DNA of 64,000 nt from Phycisphaerae bacterium. GTDB taxonomy: Bacteria > Planctomycetota > Phycisphaerae > SM23-33. Positions 852 through 52,509 of the stretch are shown piece after piece; the stretch's first letter is position 1, and the number at the start of each line of letters is the position of its first letter. The notes beneath the pieces were generated by a model. That model saw only the letters and a program-made list of their open reading frames with translations, did not search any database and had not been told where the DNA came from. The position numbers and the translations under genes are program-made. Where the stretch lies: the NCBI GenBank assembly GCA_009783465.1, contig WRDM01000009.1:1-64000 (forward strand), written 5' to 3'.

Positions 852-1694
852 ATGAACCGATTCGCAGTGGGTGTGATTGTTGGATTGTTTTCCGTTTCCG
901 CCATGGCGGCGCTGCCGGATGTGTCCGGAACGTTGCTGATTCATCTGGATGCTGCCGATGCGGTGACCAACGGCGACGGGAAGGTCGAATGGATGGCCGA
1001 CGGCAACTATGGCGGCCTGTTCACCGTGCCTTTCGGCAACAGTCCGACGATTGTTGACGACGCGTTGAATGGCCTGCCGGCGGTTTACTTCGACGGCAAC
1101 GCCGGCAACGTGCTGCGAGGGCCGACGCCTACCTCGCATACCCAGATCTCTGGCGCCCAGTACACGTTCTTCTTTGTTCTCGTCGACACGGCGAGCACAA
1201 TGGGGTTGTTTGATTCGGCCCACAACAGATCGGCCCCCCTGCGGTTTTTGACCCCGGACCGTTTGTATATGCACGACGACGCCGCGTTTCCCATTTCGCT
1301 CCCGGAGGACACAAGCAACGGCGTGCTCTTTGGCTTCACGCATTTTGGCGTTGCTGGCAATGACGACAATTGGAATGCCGGCACGGGCAATTCGCGTACC
1401 TGGTACAGCTACATCAACGGCCAGCAGGACCAGTACCTCTTCCAGAAGGGCCAGATCGTAGCCTGGTTCGAACCGCAGTTTGGTGCCATTAACGGCGGCA
1501 ATGACGGCGGCGGTGCACAAAGCTTTTTCACGGGCGGCATCGCGGAAGTGATTATCTTCGACGGCGTGCTGAGTGACGACGACCGCAAGGCTGTCGAGGC
1601 CTATCTCATGGGCAAGTACGGCATTCCCGAGCCGGCGACGATGAGCTTGCTGGCCCTGGGCGGCTTGGCGCTGCTTCGTCGGCGGGTACGGTGA
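852..1694 (+). CDS. PEP-CTERM sorting-domain protein, LamG/ConA-like
   Basis: N-terminal signal peptide; C-terminus IPEPATMSLLALGGLALLRRRVR; RBS gagaggagcaac. Confidence 0.85.
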   Translation: MNRFAVGVIVGLFSVSAMAALPDVSGTLLIHLDAADAVTNGDGKVEWMADGNYGGLFTVPFGNSPTIVDDALNGLPAVYFDGNAGNVLRGPTPTSHTQISGAQYTFFFVLVDTASTMGLFDSAHNRSAPLRFLTPDRLYMHDDAAFPISLPEDTSNGVLFGFTHFGVAGNDDNWNAGTGNSRTWYSYINGQQDQYLFQKGQIVAWFEPQFGAINGGNDGGGAQSFFTGGIAEVIIFDGVLSDDDRKAVEAYLMGKYGIPEPATMSLLALGGLALLRRRVR

Positions 1695-1769
1695 GAGGTT
1701 TTCGTTTCGGTTTTCCAGGATGTACGGATTTCCCTGAACACATAATCTCAAGAGATTAAGGAGTGTCAC

Positions 1770-2801
1770 ATGTTCACACGTGGTTTGCTCGTGGCGGCCG
1801 TTTGTGCGGCGGTGTCGCTGCCCGCGGCGGCGGGGATCTCGCCCGGCACGGGGCAATTGAGTGGGATCAATTTCGTCGGCGGCTACCTGAACGCCGATGA
1901 CCGGATCGGGTTTGCCAACGACGGCAAAGCGAGCAGCAGCCTCGATTTCAATCAATGGTGCGCGGTGGTCTGGGCCCAGCCGCAATGGTTCGACCTGATC
2001 ATTGTGGAGCAGTATTACTCGGGCCCGTTCGCTCCGTATGTCATCGAGGTCGCCTACACGGTCCCGAACGGCTGGACGCAGGCGGACGGCGTGGAGGGTT
2101 GGGCGTGGACGCCGTGGGTTGGGGCGGACGGCTCCACGACGTTCAACAGCGCGGGGTTTACGTTCAGCCCTGGCGCGGAAATTGCCGGCGTGCGGTTTGT
2201 GCGGAGCGAGTATTTGTGGCATCTGGAGGATCCAGTAAACAATACGATGACCAACTTCAGCCGGATTCGCGAAATCTGGGCCTTCGAAAAGTACGAAGGC
2301 AACCTGTCGTCGCTGGCCACCTTCTCGGCCGTGGGCTGGACGGGCGGGGGCACGAATGTCACGATGCTGAAGGATATGAACATGATGCAGCAGATCTTCG
2401 CCACCGTGGCGAACGATCTGTGCATCTACGTGGATTTCCGCGGCGCGTTGGATGACGAGGGCGATCCGCTCGCGATTACGATCGACGGGTTCATGATCGC
2501 CGGCGGGTACGCCGGTGAGCTGATGGGAAGCTTTGCGTTGCAGTACAGCCTCGACGACGGCAGCACGTGGACGACCGCGTTTGTGAACACGACCAATGAG
2601 TTCATGATCATTGGCGAGTTCGCGCCGATCACGGCGTCGTATTGGCGGTTCAATTTCACAGCCCCCGAGGAGAACGCGATCGGGTGGAGCGGCAACTACG
2701 TCCGCGTCACCGAAATCATGATGTTCGCTCCCATTCCCGAGCCGGCGACGATGAGCCTGCTGGCCTTGGGAGGCCTGGCGCTGCTGCGGCGACGGCGGTA
2801 A
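1770..2801 (+). CDS. PEP-CTERM sorting-domain protein, secreted, discoidin-like character possible
   Basis: Signal peptide MFTRGLLVAAVCAAVSLPAAAG; C-terminus IPEPATMSLLALGGLALLRRRR. Confidence 0.85.
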   Translation: MFTRGLLVAAVCAAVSLPAAAGISPGTGQLSGINFVGGYLNADDRIGFANDGKASSSLDFNQWCAVVWAQPQWFDLIIVEQYYSGPFAPYVIEVAYTVPNGWTQADGVEGWAWTPWVGADGSTTFNSAGFTFSPGAEIAGVRFVRSEYLWHLEDPVNNTMTNFSRIREIWAFEKYEGNLSSLATFSAVGWTGGGTNVTMLKDMNMMQQIFATVANDLCIYVDFRGALDDEGDPLAITIDGFMIAGGYAGELMGSFALQYSLDDGSTWTTAFVNTTNEFMIIGEFAPITASYWRFNFTAPEENAIGWSGNYVRVTEIMMFAPIPEPATMSLLALGGLALLRRRR

Positions 2802-3015: not shown

Positions 3016-3837
3016 TCATTCCGGCGGGAGGCGTTTGACCAGGTCGTCGTGGTAGAACTTCATGAGTCGGTCGGTCAGGCCTGGGCAGAAGGCGGCGAGG
3101 AGGGTGAGGAATTTCCCGCCTGCCGTCAGGACGATTTCGGGTTTTCGTTTGCCGACGGCGCGGGCGATTTTTTCGCCGACGACGTGGGCGGGCGTGAGGT
3201 GTTTAAATTTCTGAAAGCTCGAACCCGCCGCCCGCGAGCGGGCCGAGGCGACGAAGAAGTCCGTCGCGGTCAAGGCGGGGCAGACGGTTGTCACGCGGAC
3301 GTTGTAGGAGGCCATTTCCACGCGGAGGCTTTCGCCCAGGCCCACCAGGGCGAATTTGCTCGCGCAATACGCCCCGTGAAACGGCGTGCCGCGTTTTCCG
3401 ATCACCGACGAGACGTTGAAAATATGGCCGTGGCGTTGGCGCATCATGATTTCGCCGGCGGCTTGGCAGCCGTAAAAAACGCCGTGAAAATTCACCTGGA
3501 AAATCCGCTCCATGTCTTGCGGCGAGATTTCCACGACGCGCGCGAACAGGCCGTAACCGGCGTTGTTGACCATGACGTCCAGCCGCCCGAATTGTTTTTC
3601 CGTGTCGGCGACCAGCGACCGCACCTGTTCGCGGTCGGCGACATCGGTGACATGCACAACGGCCTCAATCGCATGGCCGCGCTGACTGGCGGCCTGCGTG
3701 CATCGCTCGGCGACCTGGCGAAGTTTCTCCTCTCGCCGCGCGGCGAGCACGACATGATATCCACGCCGCGCCAACGCAACGGCGGTTTCCTCACCAATGC
3801 CCGAAGAGGCGCCCGTGATGATGGCGACATGAGTCAT
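3016..3837 (-). CDS. SDR family oxidoreductase
   Basis: MTHVAIITGASSGIGEETAVALARRGYHVVLAAR; YCASK active-site motif. Confidence 0.92.
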   Translation of the reverse strand: MTHVAIITGASSGIGEETAVALARRGYHVVLAARREEKLRQVAERCTQAASQRGHAIEAVVHVTDVADREQVRSLVADTEKQFGRLDVMVNNAGYGLFARVVEISPQDMERIFQVNFHGVFYGCQAAGEIMMRQRHGHIFNVSSVIGKRGTPFHGAYCASKFALVGLGESLRVEMASYNVRVTTVCPALTATDFFVASARSRAAGSSFQKFKHLTPAHVVGEKIARAVGKRKPEIVLTAGGKFLTLLAAFCPGLTDRLMKFYHDDLVKRLPPE

Positions 3838-3840
3838 CGT

Positions 3841-4101
3841 TTAGAGATTGCGGTACACTTCACGGCGATGGTCGACGTCAACGACGAAGACCAGCAACTG
3901 TTTGTCAATGATGGCGTAAATGACGCGCCAGTCGCCGACACGGATGCGATAGGCGTCCTGTCCCGCGAGTTTCAGCGTTCCGTGCGGTCGGGGGTTTTTC
4001 GCGAGCAGTTCAATGCGCGAAACAATCCGCCGCTGGACATCACGGGATAGCCCTTCGATGGCACGGGCGGCTTTCGGTGCGTATTGGATTTGATAGAGCA
4101 C
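3841..4101 (-). CDS. RelE/ParE family toxin
   Basis: MLYQIQYAPKAARAIEGLSRDVQRRIVSRIELL...YRIRVGDWRVIYAIID...VDHRREVY typical of RelE. Confidence 0.88.
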   Translation of the reverse strand: MLYQIQYAPKAARAIEGLSRDVQRRIVSRIELLAKNPRPHGTLKLAGQDAYRIRVGDWRVIYAIIDKQLLVFVVDVDHRREVYRNL

Positions 4102-4104
4102 GGC

Positions 4105-4290
4105 TTATAGTCCGAGTTTACGTTTGAGCTGTTCGTGCGAGATGACGCGAAGTTTTCCTTCCTTCCATTTTTTCAACGTGGAAGCTGCCAGAGCGCTATC
4201 GCGCCGATCCTGCGCCGTCAGCCTTCGGAACTCGGCCTTGGGAACGAGGACGAATTCTTCTCCGTTCATTTTGAGTGTGGCATGGGCCAT
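4105..4290 (-). CDS. Cognate antitoxin, RelB/Phd-like
   Basis: 61-aa ORF directly upstream of relE-like toxin (3-nt gap). Confidence 0.75.
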   Translation of the reverse strand: MAHATLKMNGEEFVLVPKAEFRRLTAQDRRDSALAASTLKKWKEGKLRVISHEQLKRKLGL

Positions 4291-4307
4291 AAAACACCTC
4301 TACGACC

Positions 4308-4313
4308 ATTATA
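4308..4313 (-). promoter_or_regulatory. Candidate -10 box of the TA promoter
   Basis: TATAAT on the minus strand upstream of the antitoxin start. Confidence 0.45.
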
Positions 4314-4353
4314 ACACAAGCGTGGCGAACAAGGGCAACCGGCCTTCCACATG

Positions 4354-5805
4354 TCAGGTTTTCTCCGTTTCCGCCATCGGCTCGCCGTGGAAGAACGCGA
4401 ACGCGCGGCGGATTTTTTCCGCGCGCTTACCGCCGGTGGGCGGGTCGAAGCGGGTTTCGTCGGTCGCCATTTGTGCCCTGGCCATCCGCGCCCAGCCCTG
4501 GTTCATGCCGTGCACGAACAGCGCCGTCGTCAGTGAGCGGTTGCGCCAGAGCGCTTTGAGCGTCCGCTTCCACACCCATGCCGAGCTGGCGGCCGCCTTG
4601 CGGATTTCGAAAATCGCCTGGTCCAACTCGCGGCCTGTCATTTTCGACGGCGTGTAGACGGTTTCCGTGAAGCTGTATCGTTCCCAGTCGTCGGGATAGT
4701 TGGTCGCCTGCAAACGCCCGGCGGCGTGATAGCGGTCGTACATTCGCGTGCCCGGCAGCAGGGTGAGGTTGGTGACTTGGATGATGTCGATGCCGAGATG
4801 GACGGCCTGCAGCGTGGTGTCGGCGACGGTGTCGGGCGTGTCCTCATCGGCGCCGACGATGAATCCGCCGAAGACGGCCACGCCGGCTTTGTGGAAACCG
4901 TCGACCATTTGTTTGTAGCGGTCCAGCAGTTTGGTGTTGATGCCCTTGCGGTAGGCCTTGAGTGTTTCGGGGTTGAAACTTTCGAATCCGATGAGCATGC
5001 CGCGGCAGCCGGCTTTGTAGGCCAGGCGGAGCGAGTCGACGTCCTGGCCCATGTTCATGGTGGTCTGGCTGAACCACAGCCGCTTTCGGCCGCTCTTGAC
5101 GAGTTCGGTGAGCAGTTCGCGGGCCCAGGCGATGTCGTTGTTCGACAGGCCGAAAAAGTTGTCGTCGACGACGAAGACGAACGGTTTGTCGCAGCGGTTC
5201 CATTCGTCGACGATGTCTTTGATGGGGCGTCGGCGGACGACCGAGCCGTTGAATGTCGTGACGCTACAGTAGTCGCAGCCGACGGGGCAGCCTCGGGAGG
5301 TCTGGATGCAGCCGACGTCGTATTTTCCGTTGACGGGCTGGAGGTCCTGGGCGGCTCCGCCCAGTCCGGCGGAGAGGTCGGCGAGTTGGCCTTCGTACCG
5401 TGTGGCGAGTCGGCCGGCTTCGGCGTCGGAGACGATTTGCGGCCAGCAGTCGTCGCACTCGCCGATGGCGATCGCATTGAATCGCGGCTGGGCTTCGTCG
5501 GGGCGGACGCTCGCGTGCGGTCCGCCCATGACGGTGGTCAGTCCCCGCTCGCGACACAGGGCGGCGATTTCATACGCCCGCGGCGCGGAACTGGTGTAAC
5601 TGGTGATGCCCACCAGGTCGTAGTTGTCCCGCGTCAGCCGGGCGGCGGTCTGCTCCTGGCCAAACACTTCGTCGATGATGTCCACCCGGTGCTGGCCCCG
5701 CACGCGCTCGGCGAGCACGCTCAGCCCCAACTGCGGAATGTACCGACCGATGGTGTGATATCCCTGAGAGCGGCGAGTGATCGGATTGACTAAGGCGATT
5801 CGCAT
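4354..5805 (-). CDS. B12-binding-domain radical SAM protein
   Basis: MRIALVNPITRRS..., QTSRGCPVGCDYCSV (CxxxCxxC); start moved to 5805 because the longer ORF start lies in a repeat. Confidence 0.85.
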   Translation of the reverse strand: MRIALVNPITRRSQGYHTIGRYIPQLGLSVLAERVRGQHRVDIIDEVFGQEQTAARLTRDNYDLVGITSYTSSAPRAYEIAALCRERGLTTVMGGPHASVRPDEAQPRFNAIAIGECDDCWPQIVSDAEAGRLATRYEGQLADLSAGLGGAAQDLQPVNGKYDVGCIQTSRGCPVGCDYCSVTTFNGSVVRRRPIKDIVDEWNRCDKPFVFVVDDNFFGLSNNDIAWARELLTELVKSGRKRLWFSQTTMNMGQDVDSLRLAYKAGCRGMLIGFESFNPETLKAYRKGINTKLLDRYKQMVDGFHKAGVAVFGGFIVGADEDTPDTVADTTLQAVHLGIDIIQVTNLTLLPGTRMYDRYHAAGRLQATNYPDDWERYSFTETVYTPSKMTGRELDQAIFEIRKAAASSAWVWKRTLKALWRNRSLTTALFVHGMNQGWARMARAQMATDETRFDPPTGGKRAEKIRRAFAFFHGEPMAETEKT

Positions 5806-5860
5806 GGTGGTTTTTCGTTGCTTGTTGGTGAAATCGGTCCGTCGATTCGGGGTCGTCAGA

Positions 5861-6010
5861 GCCAGTAGCCAATAGCCAGTAGCCAATAGGTACGGCGAAG
5901 TTTGTCGTAATTCATGCGATCCAGGCGTTGGTGTCGTTTACGCTCCGTCTCGTTTTCGATGTCTTTTCGCCAATGTCGTTCCGTACTTATTGGCTGTTGG
6001 CTACGGGCTA
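5861..6010. repeat. Heptamer-array palindrome, alpha type (AGCCART)n
   Basis: gccagtagccaatagccagtagccaatagg ... cttattggctgttggctacgggcta; 95-nt inter-array core. Confidence 0.85.
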
Positions 6011-7225
6011 AAGAACAATCCGTCCGAACTTCAGTTTTCCGACCCGCAAGACCTGGCCGGCGTGTAATGGTATGCACGTTTTGGGATCGGTGATTTTTTT
6101 CTCGTCGAGGGAGACAGCGTTTTGTTCGACCAGCCGCCGGGCGGCGTTCTTCGAGTCGGCAAAGCCAGCCTTCAGCACCAGGTCGACGATGTTCATGGTC
6201 TCGGCGGTCGCCTTCACGTCGGGCATGTCGGCGGGGACGGCGTGCTGGCTGAAGACGCGGGCGAACTCGGCGGCGGCTTCGTCGGCGTCGGCCTGGCTGT
6301 GGAACTGCGCGACGATCCGCTTGCCGAGGATCTCCTTCGCCTGCCGCGGGTGCGTCGTGGCGGCGTCGCACAGCGCGGCGATTTCGGCGGGCGGCAGGTC
6401 CGTCAGCAGCGTGAAGTAATTGGTCATCAGGCCATCGGGAATCGACATCACCTTGCCGAACATTTCCTTGGGACTTTCGGTCACGCCGATGTAGTTGCCC
6501 TTGGATTTGCTCATTTTCTGCTCGCCGTCGAGGCCCACGAGGATCGGCATGATGACGACGATCTGCGGCGGCTGATTGTACGCTTTTTGCAAATCGCGCC
6601 CGACGAGGTTGTTGAACGTCTGGTCGCTGCCGCCCAGCTCCACGTCGGCGTGGATCATCACGCTGTCGTAGCCCTGCATGATCGGGTAGAGGAATTCATG
6701 CAGGAACACATCCTGATTTTGCGCCAGCCGCTGTTTGAAACTGTCGCGCTGGATCATTTGTGCGACGGTTTTCCTGGCGGCCATCTGGAGCACCTCCATG
6801 AACGTGAGTTTCTCCAGCCATTCGCTGTTGGACCGGACTTCGAGTTTTTCCGGAGAGAGGTCGAGGATTTTGCCGGCCTGGTCGATATAGGTCTGCGCGT
6901 TGGCGGCGATTTGTTCGGGGCTGAGGATCGGGCGGGTCTTGTTCGCGCCTGACGGGTCGCCGACGCGCGCGGTGTAGTCGCCGATGATCAGCACGGCCTT
7001 GTGTCCGAGGTCCTGAAACTGCCGCATTTTTTGCAGCACGACGGTGTGCCCGAGGTGAATATCCGGCGCGGTCGGGTCCAGCCCGAGTTTCACGCGGAGT
7101 TGCCTGCCCTCGGCGGCGGCCCGTGTCAGCCGCTGCGCCAACTCCTCCCGCGTATACATCGCCTCGACGCCGCGAGAAAGCTCCTCCACCTGTTCCGAAA
7201 CCGGTTTGTCGCTGAATGTAGCCAT
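6008..7225 (-). CDS. tyrS: Tyrosyl-tRNA synthetase
   Basis: KLGLDPTAPDIHLGHTVVLQKMRQFQDLGH; KMSKSKGNYIGV; S4-like C-terminus. Confidence 0.95.
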   Translation of the reverse strand: MATFSDKPVSEQVEELSRGVEAMYTREELAQRLTRAAAEGRQLRVKLGLDPTAPDIHLGHTVVLQKMRQFQDLGHKAVLIIGDYTARVGDPSGANKTRPILSPEQIAANAQTYIDQAGKILDLSPEKLEVRSNSEWLEKLTFMEVLQMAARKTVAQMIQRDSFKQRLAQNQDVFLHEFLYPIMQGYDSVMIHADVELGGSDQTFNNLVGRDLQKAYNQPPQIVVIMPILVGLDGEQKMSKSKGNYIGVTESPKEMFGKVMSIPDGLMTNYFTLLTDLPPAEIAALCDAATTHPRQAKEILGKRIVAQFHSQADADEAAAEFARVFSQHAVPADMPDVKATAETMNIVDLVLKAGFADSKNAARRLVEQNAVSLDEKKITDPKTCIPLHAGQVLRVGKLKFGRIVL

Positions 7226-7276
7226 AGAATGCGATTATATGAAAATAAACGGCGAATAACAAGAAACGGACGAAAT

Positions 7277-7460
7277 GTGACGAGTGACGAGTAACGAGTG
7301 ATGAGTGACGAGGATTTCCGCGTTTTGGTGAGACGATAGCATCGTGCATGTGTGGATTCGACGTGGGAGGCCGATCCATTCGTATTCATGTACGACGGTA
7401 TCGTTTCGTTTGGCTGAAATTTCGAAGTCCTCATCACTCGTCACTCATCACTCGTTACTG
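7277..7460. repeat. Heptamer-array palindrome, gamma type (GTGACGA)n
   Basis: gtgacgagtgacgagtaacgagtgatgagtgacgaggat ... tcctcatcactcgtcactcatcactcgttac. Confidence 0.85.
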
Positions 7461-8149
7461 TTCTGGTCGCGTTCGCCGCGAATTGCCGCCACGTTGCCCA
7501 AGCCCATGGTGCGTGTGGTTGTGTTGGCAAATCCCGCGTCGCGCAGGGTGGCGGTGAGTGTTTCGGCGTGGAGGAATGACTGCACGGATGCGTGCAGGTA
7601 ACGATAGGCGACCGGTTGGCCGGAGATGGCACCGGCTGTGCGTGGCATGATCGCTTGGGTGAACCACCGCAGCATCGTGCCGCCGGGGCCTGTCGCGCGG
7701 CAGAATTCCAGCACGACAAGCCGTCCGCCGGGGCGAAGGACGCGGTGGAATTCGCGGAGGGAGGCCCGCGGGTCGGCGAGGTTCCGCAGGCCGAACGCGA
7801 TGGTGACGACGTCGAACGCCTCGTCGGGCATGGGCAGCGCGTGGGCGTCGGCGTGGAGGTATTCGATGTCCGCCGACCGGGCCCGCGCGATCCGCAGCAT
7901 CGCCTCGCAGAAATCCGCGCCGACGACGTTTGCCCCAGCCGCCCGCAACAGCCTGGCCACGTCGCCGGTGCCGCACGCGACATCCAACGCCCGCTCCCCC
8001 GCCCGCACGTCCGCCATCCGCACGGCCGCCCGCCGCCAGGCCTGATCCCGCCACAACGTATGCAGCCGATTGTTCACGTCGTACCGCGCCGCAATGCTCG
8101 CAAACATCGCCTGAATGCGAGCAGGATCTTTTGATGGACTTGCGGGCAT
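7448..8149 (-). CDS. ubiE: Demethylmenaquinone/ubiquinone methyltransferase
   Basis: MFASIAARYDVNNRLHTLWRDQAWRR, LDVACGTGDVARLL, FGLRNLADP; C-terminal stop lies in repeat 7277..7460. Confidence 0.92.
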   Translation of the reverse strand: MPASPSKDPARIQAMFASIAARYDVNNRLHTLWRDQAWRRAAVRMADVRAGERALDVACGTGDVARLLRAAGANVVGADFCEAMLRIARARSADIEYLHADAHALPMPDEAFDVVTIAFGLRNLADPRASLREFHRVLRPGGRLVVLEFCRATGPGGTMLRWFTQAIMPRTAGAISGQPVAYRYLHASVQSFLHAETLTATLRDAGFANTTTRTMGLGNVAAIRGERDQNSNE

Positions 8150-11888: not shown

Positions 11889-11964
11889 GGAGGACAACGT
11901 TTCTCTCGCCAATTGACCATGCCGGCCAATGTTGGCAGAATGTGGCCAAACCAAAGGAGTTTCG

Positions 11965-14625
11965 ATGAACGCCCTACGTCCCTTTGCCGCGCGGGTGAGT
12001 TGGATCTGGTCGGACGAGAATGTTTCCGGCGTCAGCCCGGTCAATCGCGATCCGGTCGTCACGCGGTATTTTCGCCGTACGTTCGATGCTTTCGCGGGGC
12101 AGCGGCTGGTGGTCTACATTTCCGCCGACAGCCGATACAAGTTGTTCTGCAACGGCGTGCTCGTCGCGCGCGGCCCGGCGAAGGGCGACATCGCGCATCA
12201 TTTTTACGAGACGGTCGATCTCACGGCGCATCTGCGGGCTGGGCGGAACGTGTTGGCCGCGCAGGTGCAGTTTTATGGGCAGGCCGCCCCGAATTATTAC
12301 ACCGGCGGGCCTCTCGTCAGCGTGATGACGCACGCGCCGGGGCTTGTAGTGCAGGCCCGGCTGAGCGACGCGGCCGGCTTCGAGTCGCAGTCCCTCGACA
12401 GCGACGAGCGCTGGCGCGTGCTCGCCGACACCGCCTGCCGACATCACGGCGACGGGCCCAACTGCCCCTGCGCGGGCTGGCTGGAAGATTTCGACGCCGC
12501 ACAGTTCCCCTGGGGTTGGACGGGGCTGGAGTTTGACGACTCCGCCTGGCCGGCCGCCACGCCGATCGATTTGGCCACCATGATCAACGACGGCAGGCAG
12601 AGCGTCATGCCGCATCAGCTCCTGCCTCGCATGATCGCGATGCTGGACGAGCAGGCCCCGCGCGGCTTCGCCCGCGCGTACGGCGCGACGGGCGCCGCCG
12701 ACCTGGCCGCGTGGCAGACGCTGCTACGTGGCGCGGGCGTCTCGCCCGCGTTGTGCGATCCATTGGCCTGTTCAACGGAAAACGGTCAATCGCCTTCGCC
12801 GTCGGGCGCGGGCAAGATGCCCGCGAGACACGAGGGCGAGACGCCCTCGTCACGTGAAACCGGCGTGACGATTCCTGCCGGGCAGTCCGCCAGCGTCTGG
12901 TTCGACGCCGGCGCGAACACGACGGGCTATCCGCGTCTGCAATTCGCCGGGCGCGGCGAGGTGACGCTGACGTACATGGAGTCGCCCATCGCCCCCGATG
13001 GCACAAAACCCAACCGCAACGCCGAGGGCGACTGGCAGCCGACGGGCCAATCCGACCGCGTCCTCTGTGACGGCAGCCACACCTACGAGCCGTTCTGGTG
13101 GCGGACGTTCCGTTTTGTCCACGTGCGAGTGCAGGCCGGCGAAACGCCGCTGACTATCGCGGGCCTGCGGTACGCGTTCACGGCCTATCCGCTCGCGCCG
13201 CGGGCGGCGTTCGAGTGCAGCGACGCTGCCGCCACGGCCGTCTGGGAAAACTGCTGGCGGACGCAGGTGCTCTGTTCGCACGAAACGTACGAGGACTGCC
13301 CGTACTACGAGCAGCTTCAATACGGCGGCGACACGCAGGTCCAGTGCATGAACACGTACGCCGCCGCCGGCGACGCCACGCTCGCACGGCAGTTTTTGTA
13401 TCAGTTCGATTGGTCACGTCAACCCAGCGGCCTGACGCGAAGCCGCTACCCCTCGCGAATCCCGCAGACGATTCCGTACTGGTCGCACCATTGGGTGATG
13501 ACGTTGGCGGAGTATTGGCAGTACACCGCCGACCGCGCGACGGTGGCGGACCTGCTGCCGGGTGTGTTGAATTTCGCCGATTATCTCGAGCGTCGCGTGA
13601 CGCCCGCGGGCGTGATCGGGCGGCTTGACGGCTGGCTGGTCGCGGACTGGTCTCCGGACTGGGGCTGGATGAATCGGCAGCACGGCGCGCCTCCGGGCGC
13701 GTCGCAGGGGCAGGGGGCGTACGACAGTTTGATTTCGATTGCCGCGTTGTCGTCGGCGGCGACGGTGGTGGAGGCGGTGGGGGGGGCGTGTTTGGGCGAT
13801 CGCGCCGAGGCCGTCGCGCGGGAGTTGCGCGGGCGGCTCGAACGGCTGCGGCAGGCCGTCGTTCGCGTGTATTACGACGCGGCGGAGGACGTGTATCTCG
13901 ACAGGCCTCGGGGCGACCTGACGGACATGGAGCATTCCGGCGGGCGGCGGGCCAGCGCGTTCACGAACGCCTGGGCGATTCTGACCGACATGCCGATCGC
14001 CGATCCAGGCCGGCTTGCGGAGCGGATGATTCGCGACACGACGGGCCTGTGCCGGCTGACGCCGTTCAGTGGCTACTTTGCCGCGCGGGCGCTGTCGCAT
14101 GCCCGGCGGTATGACTTGTTCCCCATGCTCATCGCGCCGTGGCGGTCGATGATCGACTGGGGCTTGACGACCTGCCCGGAGTTCCCCGATTTCGCGACCA
14201 GCCGCAGCGACTGCCACGCGTGGTCCGCCGGACCGCTCGTCGAATTCACGCGGGAAATCCTCGGCGTCCGCCCGAGCAGGCCCGGCTGGGCGGAAATCAC
14301 GATCCAGCCGCGCCCCGCGGGCCTGTCGCACGCCAAAGGCAGAGTGCCCCTGACGCGATGCTTCCGCTTCGACGGCCGGGCGGCCTCCTGCGGCAACCAG
14401 GCCGACCTGACCGCCCCAGGCAGCCCCCACGAACACGTCACCGCCGCCCAGCAGGCCATGACCACGCCCTGGGAATTCGTCGAAGTGGATTGGCGTATTA
14501 TCGCCGGGAGATTCGCCATTGTTGTGGATGTTCCACGAGGTATTCCCACGCGATTGATTTTGCCCGATGGCACGACGCGGGAGTATCCCACCGGTGGAAA
14601 AATCGAAACGAGTTGTGAGGTGTGA
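11965..14625 (+). CDS. Alpha-L-rhamnosidase-like protein (GH78 family), carries an in-frame palindromic insert
   Basis: SYEDCPYYEQLQYGGDTQVQ-like GH78 catalytic motif (ETYEDCPYYEQLQYGGDTQ); RBS caaaggag before MNALRPF. Confidence 0.85.
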   Translation: MNALRPFAARVSWIWSDENVSGVSPVNRDPVVTRYFRRTFDAFAGQRLVVYISADSRYKLFCNGVLVARGPAKGDIAHHFYETVDLTAHLRAGRNVLAAQVQFYGQAAPNYYTGGPLVSVMTHAPGLVVQARLSDAAGFESQSLDSDERWRVLADTACRHHGDGPNCPCAGWLEDFDAAQFPWGWTGLEFDDSAWPAATPIDLATMINDGRQSVMPHQLLPRMIAMLDEQAPRGFARAYGATGAADLAAWQTLLRGAGVSPALCDPLACSTENGQSPSPSGAGKMPARHEGETPSSRETGVTIPAGQSASVWFDAGANTTGYPRLQFAGRGEVTLTYMESPIAPDGTKPNRNAEGDWQPTGQSDRVLCDGSHTYEPFWWRTFRFVHVRVQAGETPLTIAGLRYAFTAYPLAPRAAFECSDAAATAVWENCWRTQVLCSHETYEDCPYYEQLQYGGDTQVQCMNTYAAAGDATLARQFLYQFDWSRQPSGLTRSRYPSRIPQTIPYWSHHWVMTLAEYWQYTADRATVADLLPGVLNFADYLERRVTPAGVIGRLDGWLVADWSPDWGWMNRQHGAPPGASQGQGAYDSLISIAALSSAATVVEAVGGACLGDRAEAVARELRGRLERLRQAVVRVYYDAAEDVYLDRPRGDLTDMEHSGGRRASAFTNAWAILTDMPIADPGRLAERMIRDTTGLCRLTPFSGYFAARALSHARRYDLFPMLIAPWRSMIDWGLTTCPEFPDFATSRSDCHAWSAGPLVEFTREILGVRPSRPGWAEITIQPRPAGLSHAKGRVPLTRCFRFDGRAASCGNQADLTAPGSPHEHVTAAQQAMTTPWEFVEVDWRIIAGRFAIVVDVPRGIPTRLILPDGTTREYPTGGKIETSCEV
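12726..12856. repeat. Family C palindromic element inserted in frame in the GH78-like CDS
   Basis: cgtggcgcgggcgtctcgcccgcg ... gcgggcaagatgcccgcg..gagggcgagacgccctcgtcacg. Confidence 0.88.
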
Positions 14626-17076: not shown

Positions 17077-17233
17077 GGGCGAACGCATGGTACGTGACGC
17101 GGGCATCTTGCCCGCGTGTCTCGCGGCCGTCTTGGCCGCGTCCGGCGATGAAACGCCAAGATTTTTTGCGATGTACGTTGTATGGAGCGGCCCGCGAGGG
17201 CAAGATGCCCTCCCACGTACCATGCGTTCGCCC
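17077..17233. repeat. Family C palindromic element, intergenic
   Basis: gggcgaacgcatggtacgtgacgcgggcatcttgcccgcg ... gagggcaagatgccctcccacgtaccatgcgttcgccc. Confidence 0.88.
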
Positions 17234-22418: not shown

Positions 22419-22554
22419 CGGGGCGGCCGTACGTGGCGCGGGTATCCCGCCCGCGTTGGATTCGCGGGCACCTTGTAGGTTCTTGTTGCATTGGATTCAT
22501 GGTACGATCAGCGAGGGCAAGATGCCCGCGTCACGTACCATGCAACCGCCCCGA
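22419..22554. repeat. Family C palindromic element, intergenic, abuts the next CDS start
   Basis: ccggggcggccgtacgtggcgcgggtatcccgcccgcg ... gagggcaagatgcccgcgtcacgtaccatgcaaccgccccg. Confidence 0.82.
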
Positions 22555-30042: not shown

Positions 30043-31971
30043 CTACACCCGCAGCAACTGTTGTTTCTTTTCTTCGACGAACTGGTGGGTGTAGAGTTCG
30101 TGGTATCGGCCTTGGAGGCGGAGGAGGTCGTGGTGGGTGCCTTGTTCGGTGATTCGGCCATGTTCGATCACGAGGATGTGGTCGGCGTTTCGGATCGTCG
30201 AGAGGCGGTGGGCGATGACGAAGCTGGTTCGGCCTTTGAGCAGTTGTTCCACGCCGCGTTGGATGAGGCGTTCGGTGTGGGTGTCGACGGAGGAGGTGGC
30301 TTCGTCCATGACGAAGATCTGCGGGTCGGCGAGCACCGCGCGGGCGAAGGAGATCAGTTGCTTCTGCCCCGTGGAGAGCCGGTTGCCGCCCTGGCCGACT
30401 TCGGTGTCGTAGCCGTGTTCGAGGCGGAGGATGAATTCTTCGGCGTTGACCAGCCGGGCGGCGGCGGCGACCTCGTCGTCGGAGGCGGTCAGTCGCCCGT
30501 AGCGGATGTTCTCGCGCACCGACCCGCCGAACAGGTGCGGCGTCTGGAGCACAATGCCCAGCCGGCTTTGCAGCCACAACAGGCTGCGGCGGCGATAATC
30601 CACGCCGTTGATGAGGACCTGCCCGGCGGTGGGTTCGTAGAAGCGGCACAGCAGGCTGACGATGGTGCTCTTGCCCCCGCCGGTGTGCCCGACCAGCGCG
30701 ATCGTCTTCCCTGCCGACACGGTGAGATTGAAGCCCGTCAGCACGGGTTGGCCTTCCTTGTAGGCGAAATCCACGTCGCGGAATTCGATGGTGTCGATGC
30801 GGTCGTCGCAACGTGGCGCGGGCGTCTCGCCCGCGCTATGCGCTCCATAGGCCGGAACGGTGGAGGACGGCGAAACCGGTTGGCCGTTTGCCAACGATCC
30901 GTCACAGGGCGTGGTTAACGCGGGCGAGACGCCCGCGTCACGTTGCGACGCCTGTTTGACCTCCTCGCTGTCCCGGATGGCCGGCTCGGTCGCCAGCAGC
31001 GTCAGCACGCGTTCCACCGACGCCTGCGACGCATACACTTCCGTCAGCACGCGGGCCATCTCGTTGACCGGATCGAAAAACATGCCCGCGCAGGTGATGA
31101 ACAACACCAGATCGCCCAGCGTCATCCCCGTGTCCATCATCCGAAGCCCGCCGTACCACAGCGCCAGGCCCGCCCCCGTCGCGCCAACCGCCGTCACGAT
31201 CGGCATGTACAAGGCCGACTGCAACGCGTTCCGCATGCTGCTGCCGTACATCTCGTCCGTCTGCTTGGTGAATTCCCCGAGGCTCTCCGCCTCGCGGGCC
31301 AACGCCTTGGTCGTCCGAACCGCCTGGAGCGACTCGTTATACGACGCCGTGATCTGCGAGTTGACCTTTCGCATCGCGCGCGAACTGTGGAGCAGCCTCC
31401 GCTGAAGGATCGCGCACGCCACCGCCAGCGGAGGCAACACCGCGAACACCACCAACGCCATCTGCCATTGGACGTAGAGCATCACGCCCGCCATCACGAA
31501 CATCAACACCACGCCCCAGGCGAAGTCCATCAGCCCCCAGCTCAGCAGGCCGGAGATGCGTCCGCAGTCGCCGGTCGCGCGGGCGATCAGCCAGCCGACG
31601 GGGCGGCGGTCGTAGTAGGCGAACTCCAACTCCTGCAACCGCCCGAACACGTCGCGGCGGATGTCGTGCGCGACGTGATTGGAAATGTGCCCGGCCTGCT
31701 GAATGTACTGCCAGAGAAACACCGTCTGAAAGCAGATCGACACGATCAAGCCAGCGCCGTGCCACAGCACCGCGCCGCGGTCGCCTCCGTCGGCGCCGTT
31801 GATCAGCCCGCGCAGCAGCAGCGTGTACACCATGTGCAGCGCCGCCAGCCCCGCCGTCGCCACGCCCAGCAGCACCAGCGCCCGTGTGTAAGGCCGAACA
31901 TACCGCAGCGCCTTAGCCCACTGCCGCAAGTTCAAATCGCCGGAAAATTCTTCTTCCTGGAAACCACGCAT
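30043..31971 (-). CDS. ABC transporter, fused permease/ATPase (exporter type)
   Basis: TMD + NBD: GHTGGGKSTIVSLL, LSTGQKQLISFARAVLADPQIFVMDEATSSVD; in-frame palindromic insert in the linker. Confidence 0.92.
   Translation of the reverse strand: MRGFQEEEFSGDLNLRQWAKALRYVRPYTRALVLLGVATAGLAALHMVYTLLLRGLINGADGGDRGAVLWHGAGLIVSICFQTVFLWQYIQQAGHISNHVAHDIRRDVFGRLQELEFAYYDRRPVGWLIARATGDCGRISGLLSWGLMDFAWGVVLMFVMAGVMLYVQWQMALVVFAVLPPLAVACAILQRRLLHSSRAMRKVNSQITASYNESLQAVRTTKALAREAESLGEFTKQTDEMYGSSMRNALQSALYMPIVTAVGATGAGLALWYGGLRMMDTGMTLGDLVLFITCAGMFFDPVNEMARVLTEVYASQASVERVLTLLATEPAIRDSEEVKQASQRDAGVSPALTTPCDGSLANGQPVSPSSTVPAYGAHSAGETPAPRCDDRIDTIEFRDVDFAYKEGQPVLTGFNLTVSAGKTIALVGHTGGGKSTIVSLLCRFYEPTAGQVLINGVDYRRRSLLWLQSRLGIVLQTPHLFGGSVRENIRYGRLTASDDEVAAAARLVNAEEFILRLEHGYDTEVGQGGNRLSTGQKQLISFARAVLADPQIFVMDEATSSVDTHTERLIQRGVEQLLKGRTSFVIAHRLSTIRNADHILVIEHGRITEQGTHHDLLRLQGRYHELYTHQFVEEKKQQLLRV
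30804..30948. repeat. Family C palindromic element inserted in frame in the ABC exporter CDS
   Basis: gtcgcaacgtggcgcgggcgtctcgcccgcg ... cgcgggcgagacgcccgcgtcacgttgcgac. Confidence 0.9.
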
Positions 31972-32000: not shown

Positions 32001-32160
32001 GAGCCACTAGCCACTAGCCACAAGGTATTCGTAGTTCGATTGTGGCATCACACGATGTTGATCGGGCATCATTTGTTTATCTACTCCCGCTGTCACTGCC
32101 GTTTCGCCCAGGGCGTTCCGTACCTTGTGGCTAGTGGCTAGTGGCTTGTGGCTAGTGGCT
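32001..32160. repeat. Heptamer-array palindrome, alpha type (AGCCACT)n
   Basis: gagccactagccactagccacaagg ... ccttgtggctagtggctagtggcttgtggctagtggct; 97-nt core. Confidence 0.87.
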
Positions 32161-34108
32161 TCTCGTCTTTCTGTAGATCATCCTCCAAACTATTCTGTAT
32201 CCGCCACAGGCTTGCGTAGAGGCCTTCCTGGGTGAGCAGTTCGTCGTGCGTGCCCTGCTGGGCCACTTTGCCGCGGTCGAGCACGAGAATCCGGTCCGCC
32301 TGCCGCAGCGCGGAGAGGCGGTGCGATGTCACCAGCGTTGTCCGATGGGCGTGCCGCGTCCGCAAGGCCGACAGGATCCGCGTCTCCGTCCGCGTGTCGA
32401 CGGCGGAGAGGCAGTCGTCCAGCAGCAGGATCGTGCCATCGCGAACCATCGCCCGTGCCAACGCAACCCGCTGCCGCTGCCCGCCCGAAAGCGTCACGCC
32501 ACGCTCGCCCACCAGCGTGTCGTACTTCTCGTCGAACGCCATGATCGACTCGTGCACGCACGCCGCGTGGGCGGCCGACTCGATCTGATCCTGAACGGCG
32601 ACGTTGTGGCCGAGGCGGATGTTGTCCCGCAACGTTTTGGAATACAGGAACGGCTCCTGGAGTACCACGGCGAACTGCTTCCGCACCGCCTGGCGGTCCA
32701 GGTCGCGCAATTCCTGCCCGTCCACATGGATCGAGCCGTGCTGGTAATCGTAAAACCGCAACAGCAGATGCAGCAGCACGCTCTTGCCCGACCCGCTGGG
32801 GCCGAGGATCGCCAGCGTCTGGCCTGGCGCGACGTCGAAGGAAACATCCTCCAACACGTTGGCCTGCCCGTCGAACGAAAACGTCAAGTTCCGCACGGCG
32901 ATCGCGCCCGTAGCACGGGTATCCAAACGTGACGCGGGCGTCTCGCCCGCGTTGTGTGTTCCATAGGCCTGACCGTTAAAGGACGGCGAAACCGGCTTGG
33001 TGTCTTCCGACAGTCCGTCACATGGCATGGCTAACGCGGACGAGACGCCCGCGTCACGTTCAGACGCGTCCGTCGTCTCGGGTTGCTCTTCGAGAATCTC
33101 CTCCAGACGTTCCAGCGACACCGTCGCCTTGCCCAGATTCGTCAGCAGTCTGCCCAGGCCTCGCAGCGGCCAAATGATCATGTTCCCATACGCGATGAAC
33201 GTGAACAGCACGCCCACCGTCAGCGAGCCGCCCATCACCCAGTATCCTCCGACCAGGAGAATCAGCACGTTTTGCAGATGGCAGAGCAGGTCGGTGCCCG
33301 ACCAGTACCAGGCCATCAGATTCCGCAGCCGCAGATACTCGTCGCGCTGGGCGGCGTTTTTGACGGCAAATTTGTCCCGCTCGTACGCCTGTCTGGCGAA
33401 CGCCCGCACCACGCGGATGCCCGTGAGATTCTCCTGGAGCACCGCGGTCATGGCGCCTTCGGCTTCGTCGGCCTTACGGAACGTCCGGCGGATCTTCCCG
33501 AAAAAAAACGTGGACGCCACCAGCACGATCGGCATGAGCGACATGGCCACGAGCGTCAGCCTGCCGTCGAGGGCCATCATGAACGGCAGCATGGTCAGCA
33601 GAATGATGCCCATGCGGGCAACCTCGATGGTCTGTCCGCCGACGAAGCCCTTGACGGTCTCGACGTCGCTGGTGCACCGCTGCACGAGGTCGCCGGTAGG
33701 GCGGTTGTCGTGGAACGCGCACGGCAGCCGCTGGAGGTGGTCGTACAGGCGGTTCCGCAGTCGGCGGGCGATGGTTTCGCACGCCAGGGCAGCCCAGCGA
33801 TCCTTGAGAAACGACGCCGCGCCCGCCAGCACCGCGAAGCCCGCAATGGCGATCACGCACACCCAGAGATGCCCGCCAAGCCAGCCTCGCCCGCCGAGTG
33901 ACTCGACCGCGCCCACCAGCCACGCGGGGGCGATGAGCGGCTCGTTCTTCAGCGCATAGTCGATCGTTTGCCCGATGATCCACGGCGGGACGAGCATCGC
34001 CAGCGATGCCGCCGCCATCGCCACGACGGCGGCAAGATACCGCCACTTCTGGTCGGTCATCAACCGCCAGAGCGCGACGTATTTCGACGCTTTTTTACGC
34101 GCAGTCAT
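32138..34108 (-). CDS. ABC transporter, fused permease/ATPase (exporter type), partner of 30043..31971
   Basis: GPSGSGKSVLLHLLLRF; LSGGQRQRVALARAMVRDGTILLLDDCLSAVD; stop inside heptamer repeat. Confidence 0.92.
   Translation of the reverse strand: MTARKKASKYVALWRLMTDQKWRYLAAVVAMAAASLAMLVPPWIIGQTIDYALKNEPLIAPAWLVGAVESLGGRGWLGGHLWVCVIAIAGFAVLAGAASFLKDRWAALACETIARRLRNRLYDHLQRLPCAFHDNRPTGDLVQRCTSDVETVKGFVGGQTIEVARMGIILLTMLPFMMALDGRLTLVAMSLMPIVLVASTFFFGKIRRTFRKADEAEGAMTAVLQENLTGIRVVRAFARQAYERDKFAVKNAAQRDEYLRLRNLMAWYWSGTDLLCHLQNVLILLVGGYWVMGGSLTVGVLFTFIAYGNMIIWPLRGLGRLLTNLGKATVSLERLEEILEEQPETTDASERDAGVSSALAMPCDGLSEDTKPVSPSFNGQAYGTHNAGETPASRLDTRATGAIAVRNLTFSFDGQANVLEDVSFDVAPGQTLAILGPSGSGKSVLLHLLLRFYDYQHGSIHVDGQELRDLDRQAVRKQFAVVLQEPFLYSKTLRDNIRLGHNVAVQDQIESAAHAACVHESIMAFDEKYDTLVGERGVTLSGGQRQRVALARAMVRDGTILLLDDCLSAVDTRTETRILSALRTRHAHRTTLVTSHRLSALRQADRILVLDRGKVAQQGTHDELLTQEGLYASLWRIQNSLEDDLQKDEKPLATSH
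32922..33068. repeat. Family C palindromic element inserted in frame in the second ABC exporter CDS
   Basis: ccaaacgtgacgcgggcgtctcgcccgcg ... cgcggacgagacgcccgcgtcacgttcaga. Confidence 0.9.
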
Positions 34109-40015: not shown

Positions 40016-41053
40016 CTACTCCAACTCCACCGGACTCACGCCGCCGATGGGTCGTGCTTTGCCGGCAAGCCGGTTGGCGACCTGGAGGAACTGTGCGGGC
40101 CCGACGTCTTCGGCGCGGAGGGTGTGGTCGATGTGGGCGGCGTCGAGGGCGGCCAGCAGTTCGTCGGGCTCGAACGCGGAATGTTTCCGCCGTGCGACGG
40201 AGGCCAGTTGCTTGCGACGCTGGTTGAAGCTGATGGACAGCAGGGCCTTGAGGGCGGGCACGTCGAGGACGCCGGCGGCGCGGTCGGCGTCGAAATCCAC
40301 GCGGACGATTCGGCTGACGACCTGAGGCCGGGGCCAAAACGACGTGTTGGGCACGGTCGGCCCCAGGTGGGTCCGACCCAGCAGCGACACGAGAATGCTG
40401 ATCGGCCCATACTGCGGCGTGCCCGGTTCGGCGAGGAACCGATCGGCGACTTCGGCCTGCACGGTGAAGATCAGCCGCGAGAAGAGCGTGGCACGGGCGT
40501 CCCGCCCGTGAGTCCCACGGGCATCTTGCCCGTGGTGATCTGGCTTGGATGTGGACGTTTCCTCCACTGGCTGCGCTGACATGGGCGAGACGCCCATGCG
40601 ACGCACGGGCAAGATGCCCGTGCTACTGCGCCAGGAGGTCACCAGGCATTGCGCCACCAGCGGCGTGGCGATGTTGTACGGCAGGTTGCTCACGAGGACG
40701 GCCCGGTCGCCCAGGGCGGCCAGCACGGCCGGCGAAATTTCATGCTTGCCCGCCAGCACGTCCTCGTGGAGCAGCGTGAGATTCGCCCGCCCGCCGAGGC
40801 GGCTTTCGAGAAGTCGGTGCAGCCCCTTGTCGATCTCCACGGCCACCACCCGCCCGGCCAGGACGAGCAGCTCCTCCGTCATACTCCCGGTGCCAGGCCC
40901 GACCTCCAGCACCGTCTCGACCGGCGAAAGCTCCGCCAACTCCAACACCTTGGCGAGCAGATTCTGGTCGAACAGAAAATTCTGCCCAAACCGCTTCTGC
41001 GGCGCCAGGCCGAAGTCGTCGAGGAGGCGTTTGATTTCGTTGAGGCTTTGCAT
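40016..41053 (-). CDS. ksgA: 16S rRNA dimethyladenosine transferase with in-frame palindromic insert
   Basis: KRFGQNFLFDQNLLAKVLE, VLEVGPGTGSMTEELL, VSNLPYNIATPLV, FTVQAEVADRFLAEPGTPQYGPIS. Confidence 0.93.
   Translation of the reverse strand: MQSLNEIKRLLDDFGLAPQKRFGQNFLFDQNLLAKVLELAELSPVETVLEVGPGTGSMTEELLVLAGRVVAVEIDKGLHRLLESRLGGRANLTLLHEDVLAGKHEISPAVLAALGDRAVLVSNLPYNIATPLVAQCLVTSWRSSTGILPVRRMGVSPMSAQPVEETSTSKPDHHGQDARGTHGRDARATLFSRLIFTVQAEVADRFLAEPGTPQYGPISILVSLLGRTHLGPTVPNTSFWPRPQVVSRIVRVDFDADRAAGVLDVPALKALLSISFNQRRKQLASVARRKHSAFEPDELLAALDAAHIDHTLRAEDVGPAQFLQVANRLAGKARPIGGVSPVELE
40487..40626. repeat. Family C palindromic element inserted in frame in ksgA
   Basis: gtggcacgggcgtcccgcccgtgagtcccacgggcatcttgcccgtgg ... 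atgggcgagacgcccatgcgacgcacgggcaagatgcccgtgctac. Confidence 0.9.
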
Positions 41054-42876: not shown

Positions 42877-42914
42877 GGGACCTTTCCTTTCGCCGCCTCG
42901 CGGGCGGGGTTACA

Positions 42915-43046
42915 CGTAGCACGGGCGTCTCGCCCGTGAGTCGCATGGGCATCTCGCCCATGCAACGGTTCCAGAACGACCTTCTTGCCTATGCCGCCAC
43001 GGGCGGGACGCCCGTGGGACTCATGGGCGAGACGCCCATGCTACGG
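42915..43046. repeat. Family C palindromic element, ssb-rpsF junction
   Basis: cgtagcacgggcgtctcgcccgtgagtcgcatgggcatctcgcccatg ... cacgggcgggacgcccgtgggactcatgggcgagacgcccatgctacg. Confidence 0.9.
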
Positions 43047-50553: not shown

Positions 50554-52509
50554 ATGGCAGAAGGTTTTCAAAGTTCTGATAGTCTGCGAAGCGGCAAGCC
50601 GCTCATGTACGCTCAGTACGCCCAGCTTGAGCCTGTGTCGCTGGAGATGGGCGCGACGCTGAGCGATGTCACCGTGTGTTACGAAACGTACGGCACGCTC
50701 AACGTGGCCCGCGACAACGCCGTGTTGATCTGCCACGCGCTGTCGGGCGACAGCCACGTCGCGCGGCATGACGCCGATGACGACGCCGGGTGGTGGGATC
50801 TCATCATCGGGCCCGGCAAGCCGATCGACACCAACAAATACTTCGTCATCTGCCCGAACATCCTGGGCGGCTGTCGCGGCACGACCGGGCCCAACAGCAT
50901 CAACCCCGCCACGGGCCGACGCTACGGGCGCGATTTTCCGACCATCACGATTCACGACATGGCCGACGTGCAGGCGATGCTCGTGCGCCACCTGGGCATT
51001 GATTCACTGCTGGCCGTGGTGGGCGGTTCGATGGGCGGCATGCTCGCGCAGAGCCTGGCCGTGCGGCACGCGGCGATGGTGCGGGGCGCCGTCGCCGTCG
51101 CCACCGCGCCGCGATTCTCCAGCCAGTCGCTCGCCTTCGACGTCATCGGGCGAAACGTCATCCTCCGCGACCCCAACTTCTTCGGCGGCGATTACTACGA
51201 CCACGACACCGTCCCCAGCGTCGGGCTGGCCATCGCACGCATGATCGCTCACATCACCTACCTCTCGCCCGAGGCGATGCAGGAAAAATTCGAAGCCGAC
51301 CGCCACCGCCCCCGTGACGTGGCCACCGAATTCGAGAAAAAATTCTCCATCGGTTCGTATCTCGGCTACCAGGGCGACAAATTCGTCGAGCGGTTCGACG
51401 CGAACAGTTACGTTGCCATCACGACGGCGATTGACCTGTTCGACCTCGGCGCGACGCGCGAGCAGTTGCGGCAGCGGCTGGGCGAATCGGCCTGCCGCTG
51501 GCTGGTGGTGAGTTTTTCGAGCGACTGGCTGTTCCCGCCAAGCCAGTCACAGGATCTCGTCGCGGCGCTGCTGGCGAGCGGCCGATCGGTGAGCTACTGC
51601 AACGTCAAAAGCGCGTGCGGCCACGACGCGTTTTTACTGCCCAACGAAGTGCAGAGCTACGGCACGATGATCGGGTCGTTTTTGGCGAATCTGGACGGCC
51701 CAAAATCGGCGGCGAAAACGCAGGCGGCCAAGCCCGCGGCGGAAATGGCCGCCGCCGACAGTCCGACGAGCATTTTCACCGCGCGGCGGCTGGATTACGA
51801 ACGGATCATGGAGCAGATTCCGTCCGGCAGCAGCGTGCTGGATCTTGGCTGCGGCGCGGGCGGGCTGCTGGCGAGGCTGGCGCGTCGCGAGGGCAGCCCA
51901 CGTGACGCGGGCGTCTCGCCCGCGTTGTGTGATCCATTGGCCGGGACGCCCCCCTCCCCCCAATCGTCTTCGCCAACCGACGCGGGCAAGATGCCCGCGG
52001 GACACGAGGGCGAGACGCCCTCGTCACGTCATACACGACTAATGGGCGTCGAGTTGGACGAGCGGGCGATTGTCGCGTGCGTGCATCGCGGGCTGGACGT
52101 GGTGCAGGCCGACCTGAATCAGCCGCTGCCGCAATTCGGCGACGGACAATTCGACACGGTCGTGCTGAGTCAAACGCTCCAGGCCGTGCGGGACGTCGAG
52201 GGTGTCATCGCCGAGATGCTCCGCATCGGCAAACGGTGTGTGGTGAGTTTCCCGAACTTCGGCTATCGCAAGCTGCGGCAGATGCTCTTCGACGCCGGCC
52301 GCGCGCCGGAATCCTCCGGTATCCTGCGATACAAGTGGTACAACACGCCGAATATCCGCTTCTTCTCCATCGCCGATTTTGAAGAATTTTGCCGCGAAAA
52401 AACCATCCGCATCCAACGACGAATCGCCCTGGACACCGAAGCAGGCCAGGAAATCCACGACGACCCCAACCTCAACGCGGACCTGGCGATTTTCGCGATC
52501 TCGCGGTGA
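50554..52509 (+). CDS. metX: MetX (homoserine O-acyltransferase)-MetW fusion with in-frame palindromic insert
   Basis: DNAVLICHALSGDSHVA, GGSMGGMLAQSLAVRH; C-terminal MetW: SSVLDLGCGAGGLLARL, DTVVLSQTLQAVRDVEGVIAEMLRIGKRCVVSFPNFGYRKLR. Confidence 0.93.
   Translation: MAEGFQSSDSLRSGKPLMYAQYAQLEPVSLEMGATLSDVTVCYETYGTLNVARDNAVLICHALSGDSHVARHDADDDAGWWDLIIGPGKPIDTNKYFVICPNILGGCRGTTGPNSINPATGRRYGRDFPTITIHDMADVQAMLVRHLGIDSLLAVVGGSMGGMLAQSLAVRHAAMVRGAVAVATAPRFSSQSLAFDVIGRNVILRDPNFFGGDYYDHDTVPSVGLAIARMIAHITYLSPEAMQEKFEADRHRPRDVATEFEKKFSIGSYLGYQGDKFVERFDANSYVAITTAIDLFDLGATREQLRQRLGESACRWLVVSFSSDWLFPPSQSQDLVAALLASGRSVSYCNVKSACGHDAFLLPNEVQSYGTMIGSFLANLDGPKSAAKTQAAKPAAEMAAADSPTSIFTARRLDYERIMEQIPSGSSVLDLGCGAGGLLARLARREGSPRDAGVSPALCDPLAGTPPSPQSSSPTDAGKMPAGHEGETPSSRHTRLMGVELDERAIVACVHRGLDVVQADLNQPLPQFGDGQFDTVVLSQTLQAVRDVEGVIAEMLRIGKRCVVSFPNFGYRKLRQMLFDAGRAPESSGILRYKWYNTPNIRFFSIADFEEFCREKTIRIQRRIALDTEAGQEIHDDPNLNADLAIFAISR
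51900..52031. repeat. Family C palindromic element inserted in frame in the MetW domain
   Basis: acgtgacgcgggcgtctcgcccgcgttgtgtgatccattggcc ... gacgcgggcaagatgcccgcgggacacgagggcgagacgccctcgtcacgt. Confidence 0.9.

Follow-up and report, generated by a model that had tools for sequence, protein, structure and literature searches.

A DNA element of the REPIN type lies in frame within a gene for a GH78-like (alpha-L-rhamnosidase-type) protein in the window, as the whole 64,000-nucleotide stretch analysed here is called. Very probably it is translated as a linker within the host protein, its likely mobiliser being a REP-associated tyrosine HUH transposase (RAYT) whose gene is nested in valS. The element family, the insertion, the common reading frame and the nested RAYT can all be read directly from the sequences. 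The window element is a true intragenic REPIN of a known kind; what is new here is the frequency of such residence and the nested transposase. The nesting of the RAYT is the more important discovery of the two.

The insert in the GH78-like gene and its family

The preliminary description placed a palindromic element in frame between two domains of the GH78-like protein, and this holds. The reading frame runs unbroken through the element, and Pfam domains of the GH78 type lie on either side (Bac_rhamnosid_N at residues 61-216, Bac_rhamnosid6H at 426-766 and Bac_rhamnosid_C at 779-809). The boundaries required small corrections (Table 1): the element, formerly drawn to 12856, ends one nucleotide earlier, and the ETG of the peptide first given is already host sequence. 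The lineage-specific insertion, estimated at about 44 aa, is thus one of 43 codons.

A segment matching the insert is absent from all seven aligned GH78 homologues. Five of them (L055, L056, L058, L059 and L061; 33-56% identical), from the genomes G014, G015, G043, G046 and G052, join directly across the insert site, for example as AWKAMLEGKG-AVQVG. The homologue L057 (G038) likewise lacks the 43-aa segment, and L060 (G016) has an unrelated, gappy stretch at this position. The net length difference from the nearest homologues is 41 aa, because these carry two extra residues at the junction. Conservation of the same segment in distant homologues, named beforehand as the outcome that would speak against an insertion, was not observed in the distant GH78 proteins. 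Measured against homologues from other species, the nearest of them about 50% identical, the sequences confirm a lineage-specific in-frame insertion. The source genome has more GH78-like genes (e.g., C11:39104-41248 and C2:84772-87099).

Table 1. Positions of the element, its parts, related copies and nested RAYT genes (window coordinates unless a contig or locus is named)
Feature	Position	Strand	Details
GH78-like host gene	11929..14622	+	898 aa; unbroken ORF through element; Pfam; insert-free homologues
REPIN-like element, family C copy	12726..12855	+	ACGTGGC...GTCACGT
Translated part of element	12727..12855	+	exactly 43 codons, RGAGVSPA...GETPSSR (RGAGVSPALCDPLACSTENGQSPSPSGAGKMPARHEGETPSSR)
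Left REP	12728..12749	+	foot GTGGC (12728-12732), hairpin GCGGGCG-TCT-CGCCCGC (12733-12749)
Internal hairpin	12808..12824	+	GCGGGCA-AGA-TGCCCGC
Right REP, inverted	12832..12853	-	hairpin GAGGGCG-AGA-CGCCCTC (12832-12848), foot GTCAC (12849-12853)
Sister copy, MetW part of MetX-MetW-like ORF (50233-52506)	51900..52029	+	in frame
Sister copy, ABC exporter gene (32141-34108, -), between membrane and ATPase domains	32927..33059	+	in frame, antisense to element
Sister copy, equivalent place of adjacent ABC exporter gene (30046-31971, -)	30811..30943	+	in frame
Non-genic sister copy at palindrome apex	17092..17217	-	GGCGAACGCATGGT / ACCATGCGTTCGCC
Related, shorter REP-pair copy	22431..22536	-	flanks without common coding frame
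Related REP-pair copy	40487..40626	-	GTAGC foot
Related REP-pair copy	42914..43045	+	GTAGC foot
RAYT gene between inverted REP double hairpins, in frame in valS	C1 (L040) about 1453-2165	-	
RAYT in frame in ispG	L140, L159, L162, L179		
RAYT in frame in metH	L152, L155, L168, L173, L175		
RAYT in frame in cca	L191, L193		
RAYT in frame in dinG	L107, L113		

The element is built of two inverted REPs and a spacer, in the order ACGTGGC, hairpin, spacer, internal hairpin, inverted hairpin, GTCACGT, and is able to form one long single-stranded hairpin (z = -5.5 for the ssDNA fold against dinucleotide shuffles). The feet of the window element's family are GTGGC and GTGAC (GTRRC), and sister families in the same window have GTAGC; the canonical foot is GTAG, and feet of the GTGG or GT[AG]G type have been described (PMC3733652, PMC6006769). 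The element of about 130 bp occurs in about 40 near-complete copies (at least 40) in the source genome, a Phycisphaerales metagenome-assembled genome (MAG) of 2.48 Mb that is about 70% complete. The repeat family proposed earlier is real and not a chance likeness: matches spanning most of the element occur at 40 places in the genome, the best of them after the window copy itself having 87% identity over 135 bp (E 1e-42). An iterated profile matched 76 places including related variants; these copy counts come from searches and from selected stretches of the source genome.

The element shares with REPINs its many copies in one genome, its paired REPs and the presence, in that genome, of a RAYT whose REP flanks match. 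An extragenic location, which is usual and is implied by the name, is not the rule in this family. This was not taken as excluding membership because exceptions are known (PMC3733652). By its architecture the window element is a REPIN, better filed with the RAYT-associated REPINs than with the Rickettsia palindromic elements (RPEs).

Sister copies in the window show the same behaviour. In the MetX-MetW-like ORF, the MetW/methyltransferase matches stop at residue 555 and restart at 600-601, around the insert. Two neighbouring ABC exporter genes both carry an element in the same linker from the membrane domain to the ATPase domain, which suggests either duplication following insertion or a common target; the copy at 30811-30943 is flanked by the inverted repeats CGTCGCA and TGCGACG. 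Copies at the apex of palindromes with arms of about 7-20 bp, some of them perfect, were seen in the window (17092-17217) and at L041:3396-3524 and L013:9823-9952, hinting at insertion at the tip of a hairpin. Palindromic flanks are significant on average (a mean of 6.10 of 14 matches against 5.25, P about 0.001), yet most copies lie outside clear palindromes. Insertion at the apex was therefore rejected as a general rule; clear palindromes surround about 10 of 50 copies, which speaks for no more than a preference.

A common reading frame across host genes

The coding frames to the left and right of 51 copies were scored independently, using codon usage trained on long ORFs of selected stretches; the assignment of copies as genic or non-genic is codon-usage scoring of these stretches, and not whole-genome annotation. 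Both flanks have the same best coding frame and strand at 39 of the 51 copies (binomial P = 4e-11 for 39 of 49 same-strand pairs, at an expectation of 1/3). Of these 39, 34 are in ORFs of 200 aa or longer, so that most scored copies of the family here (34/51) reside in frame within such ORFs. As judged from the translated peptides, all 34 genic copies use one common reading frame, whichever strand of the element is read.

The peptides of the genic copies begin with R-x-x-G (once C-x-x-G), and nearly all finish with ETPASR or similar. Either element strand gives the same ends, since both termini carry a palindromic CGT codon. The REP ends would thereby encode linkers rich in Gly, Ser, Pro and Ala in the host proteins. 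None of the 34 genic copies uses the second stop-free frame that the coding strand offers in at least 20 of them. This suggests either a constraint on the phase of insertion or selection against the Arg-rich peptide that the alternative frame would give.

The host genes identified by Pfam include valS, purL (two copies), feoB (two), tilS, mnmE, hemB, queG, aroDE and trkH, as well as genes for SNF2, MetX-MetW, an exosortase, FliF-FliG and ABC exporters. Compared with solved homologues, the inserts in hemB (5lzl, joined at residues 141/147) and mnmE (3gee, joined at residues 54/72) are clean. On sequence evidence, then, these elements enter functional protein genes in frame, as RPEs do. With sister copies in frame in other genes and distant homologues lacking the segment, the likeness to RPEs drawn in the preliminary description is well supported; the REPIN architecture, the plausible cognate RAYT, the in-frame majority and the nesting in valS go beyond it.

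Several host ORFs join genes that are usually separate (FliF-FliG, NrfD-ActD, GT2-GT4 and DUF1638-hydantoinase). FliF and FliG form one fused ORF in the family, with or without the element (L038:3410-5212, minus strand). The element was considered as the cause of this fusion and rejected: both parts are in one open frame also in G003, G008, G009, G016 and G042, and since these relatives are already fused, the fusion is older than the insert.

RAYT genes nested in valS and other enzymes

The best RAYT match of the source genome (C1:1535-1843; NF047646, 84.7 bits with a cut-off of 80) falls within an ORF of 942 aa that is valS. Thermus ValRS aligns to residues 4-208 and then again from 455; the RAYT and translated REPs occupy the interval, which lies at the margin of the editing domain, and a second REPIN lies downstream in the same valS (residues about 651-694). 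The RAYT is flanked by inverted 44-bp double hairpins that are identical to each other at 43 of 44 positions, match the end of the window element at 36/44 and 37/44, and are both found by the element family model. It is related to 4er8 by sequence and by predicted fold. Sequence and predicted fold both indicate a Y1 HUH domain with its catalytic Tyr: the catalytic histidines and the motif tyrosine are invariant in 24 aligned RAYTs, bar one HIH for HVH. In the predicted valS-RAYT model, the RAYT core mostly has a pLDDT of 74-91 over residues 250-430, the REP-encoded linkers are below 50 and most of the host is poor; the ispG-RAYT model (pLDDT 50) is uninformative.

A second valS was not found in the source assembly (about 70% complete), and the RAYT-bearing valS is the only one found in 11 genomes (the source and ten others), nine of them at least 90% complete. 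Being in frame in the only valS recovered, the RAYT is presumably made as part of ValRS. Weaker Y1 relatives exist in the source genome (C48, C23, C12 and C1:94648), and given the completeness of this MAG another RAYT could be missing from it. One of the weak matches to the RAYT family, L041 (C23:13560-13904), is a stand-alone IS200-like Y1 transposase ORF of 176 aa. Among 59 relatives, eight of the nine genomes with this RAYT clade are rich in these REPs, compared with one of the 50 others (Fisher P = 4e-8, a value not corrected for kinship). The RAYT nested in valS is likely the cognate transposase of the window element's family, as its REP flanks and this co-occurrence suggest.

A RAYT at the same valS site occurs in 15 genomes besides the source: in the same family (G006, G014, G019, G021, G027 and G030), in at least two other families (G038, G143, G219, G228, G270 and G294), and at the loci L124, L127 and L128, with L125 and L126 taken as the same records as G228 and G014. 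In G005, the RAYT lies near the C-terminus of valS. The L125 valS ORF (3655-7731), from another family, has extra translated REPs (GTGFQPV and HGQDARAT) besides its nested RAYT. More widely, open frames longer than 700 aa contain 37 of the 67 strong RAYT hits from a class sample of 298 genomes, and frames longer than 600 aa contain 31 of 80 RAYT loci taken from GTDB genomes; by RAYT, the nearest named genomes are Phycisphaerales MAGs.

Y1_Tnp with host domains on both sides was found in valS, alaS (L144), metH (Verrucomicrobiales), ispG (Akkermansiaceae), cca (Kiritimatiellales), sua5 (L129), GH38 (L150), dinG and type ISP genes; further cases, in Eco57I-type, DUF1156 and SNF2 genes, show such domains on one side or both. 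Restriction-modification genes are among these hosts, and ispG, metH, alaS, cca, sua5 and dinG encode unrelated core enzymes of Planctomycetota, Verrucomicrobiota and relatives. The dinG case is also present in G080, a single-contig genome of 7.2 Mb. In the RAYT tree, sequences cluster by host gene, with few host changes.

The valS site appears to have seen turnover. The congeners G021 and G030 have ValRS N-termini that are 88% identical and RAYTs that are 61% identical; ValRS unites the two (95/97), whereas the RAYT data reject this clade (AU P = 0.003, an optimistic value because the pair was picked after the divergence had been seen). This incongruence suggests that the RAYT was replaced, or inserted more than once, at a single codon, in the manner of homing elements. 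The reverse pattern is seen in G143 and G294, with RAYTs 87% and ValRS 76% identical in DNA. For dN/dS of the nested RAYTs, dS is saturated except in one pair (0.41).

Alternative explanations, mechanism and known systems

The elements might have spread without the valS RAYT, by gene conversion, recombination or another nuclease, leaving the RAYT as an unrelated passenger. Other Y1/HUH genes exist in the source genome, the MAG is incomplete and mobility is deduced; moreover, in G035 many REPs go with no more than a weak RAYT hit, and the RAYT of G019 comes without a REP match. We nevertheless regard this as unlikely, since inverted copies of related REPs flank the RAYT, whose clade co-occurs with these REPs across relatives. 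Co-option of the inserted linkers, kept for regulation, localisation or protein contacts, would fit the single-frame usage and the recurrence of RAYTs at one valS site across several genera, but it has a smaller chance of being right: the host genes are functionally unrelated, and most inspected relatives lack an insert at the same place. A slightly slimmer chance attaches to the GH78 gene being in decay and in frame by luck. Other GH78-like genes in the genome may make it dispensable, yet both flanks are open with coding composition and Pfam domains intact, and the same pattern is found in housekeeping genes such as valS whose only recovered copy carries inserts.

Precise removal of the insert before the protein is finished, by RNA splicing or intein-like protein splicing, would be convenient for essential hosts such as valS and hemB. 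It would also make frame and stops irrelevant, and since every genic copy is open in the common frame, and the Pfam domains of the nested-RAYT hosts comprise Y1_Tnp and host domains with no splicing domain seen, removal is highly improbable. Nearly all genomes involved are metagenome assemblies, but an assembly or binning artefact is the faintest of these prospects, given that many independent assemblies show the pattern, as does the single contig of G080.

The favoured explanation, a RAYT-mobilised REPIN translated as a linker, would work as follows. A REPIN is a non-autonomous element of two inverted REP hairpins around a spacer, and would be moved as ssDNA by a RAYT that cuts and joins single-stranded REP ends, as the E. 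coli enzyme does (PMC8266576). In the GH78-like gene, the element would have entered a loop in its open phase and given rise to a 43-residue Gly/Ser/Pro/Ala-rich linker; insertions that are in phase and in a loop would be tolerated by the host protein and survive as translated linkers. The autonomous REP-RAYT-REP unit may insert likewise; within an essential gene it would be expressed and shielded from loss.

More tentatively, and with a little less than even confidence, we propose a RAYT clade that lives by in-frame residence in conserved, mostly essential bacterial enzymes, returning to or replacing itself at the same codon of one host gene, much as an intein would but with no splicing, and seeding the genome with translated REPINs; its REP ends would serve at the same time as flexible linkers in the protein. 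If this is true, it would help to explain the persistence of 'domesticated' transposases. Loss of a RAYT from valS, ispG or metH would require precise excision, and its expression would follow that of the host gene, which would offer an answer both concrete and open to test. For annotation, structure prediction and protein evolution it would also matter that bacterial enzymes carry large translated mobile inserts, and do so in many core genes.

Intragenic REPs and REP dimers in ORFs have been reported before, with Opitutus terrae, of the PVC superphylum, richest in those of the GTAG type; more than half of the intragenic inserts were dimers or groups, encoding 20 to 30 aa (PMC3733652). In-frame REP insertions are also known inside subclass 2.4 RAYT genes, in a study that left out RAYT proteins longer than expected, treating them as fusions or annotation errors (PMC6006769). 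RAYTs have been described as single-copy and vertically inherited (PMC8049555). We found no report, in a literature that was mostly open-access, of a RAYT gene nested in frame in a host enzyme. The nested gene resembles known RAYTs (TnpA-REP; PMC2817692, PMC6006769, PDB 4ER8) in its NHVH and WQ motifs, the tyrosine in YVxxNP and its REP flanks.

RPEs (Ogata et al. 2000, as described in PMC10969869 and PMC3733652) are likewise palindromic repeats of 100-150 bp that sit in frame in unrelated genes. The present elements differ in phylum, in architecture, in having a RAYT with related REP flanks and, judged from published descriptions, probably in sequence. RPE-4 and RPE-6 are CGTC-tagged repeats said to have no dedicated transposase (PMC3733652); the valS-nested RAYT would supply the transposase that the Rickettsia analogy was without. 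Inteins with homing endonucleases also lie in frame in conserved essential genes, reuse one site and are replaced independently of the host gene. Here, however, the insert apparently stays in the protein and the enzyme is a Y1 transposase, and no Hint or intein family appears in the Pfam lists of the scanned nested-RAYT ORFs. In form the elements resemble REPINs (Bertels & Rainey 2011, PMC3116915; PMC3733652), with an inverted REP doublet of about 130 bp, a foot that fits GTRR, many copies and a RAYT in the genome. In Pseudomonas fluorescens SBW25 nearly all REPINs are extragenic, with 14 of 1067 16-mers overlapping genes, whereas here two thirds of the scored copies (34 of 51) lie in ORFs and share a single frame, and the RAYT likewise resides within a gene.
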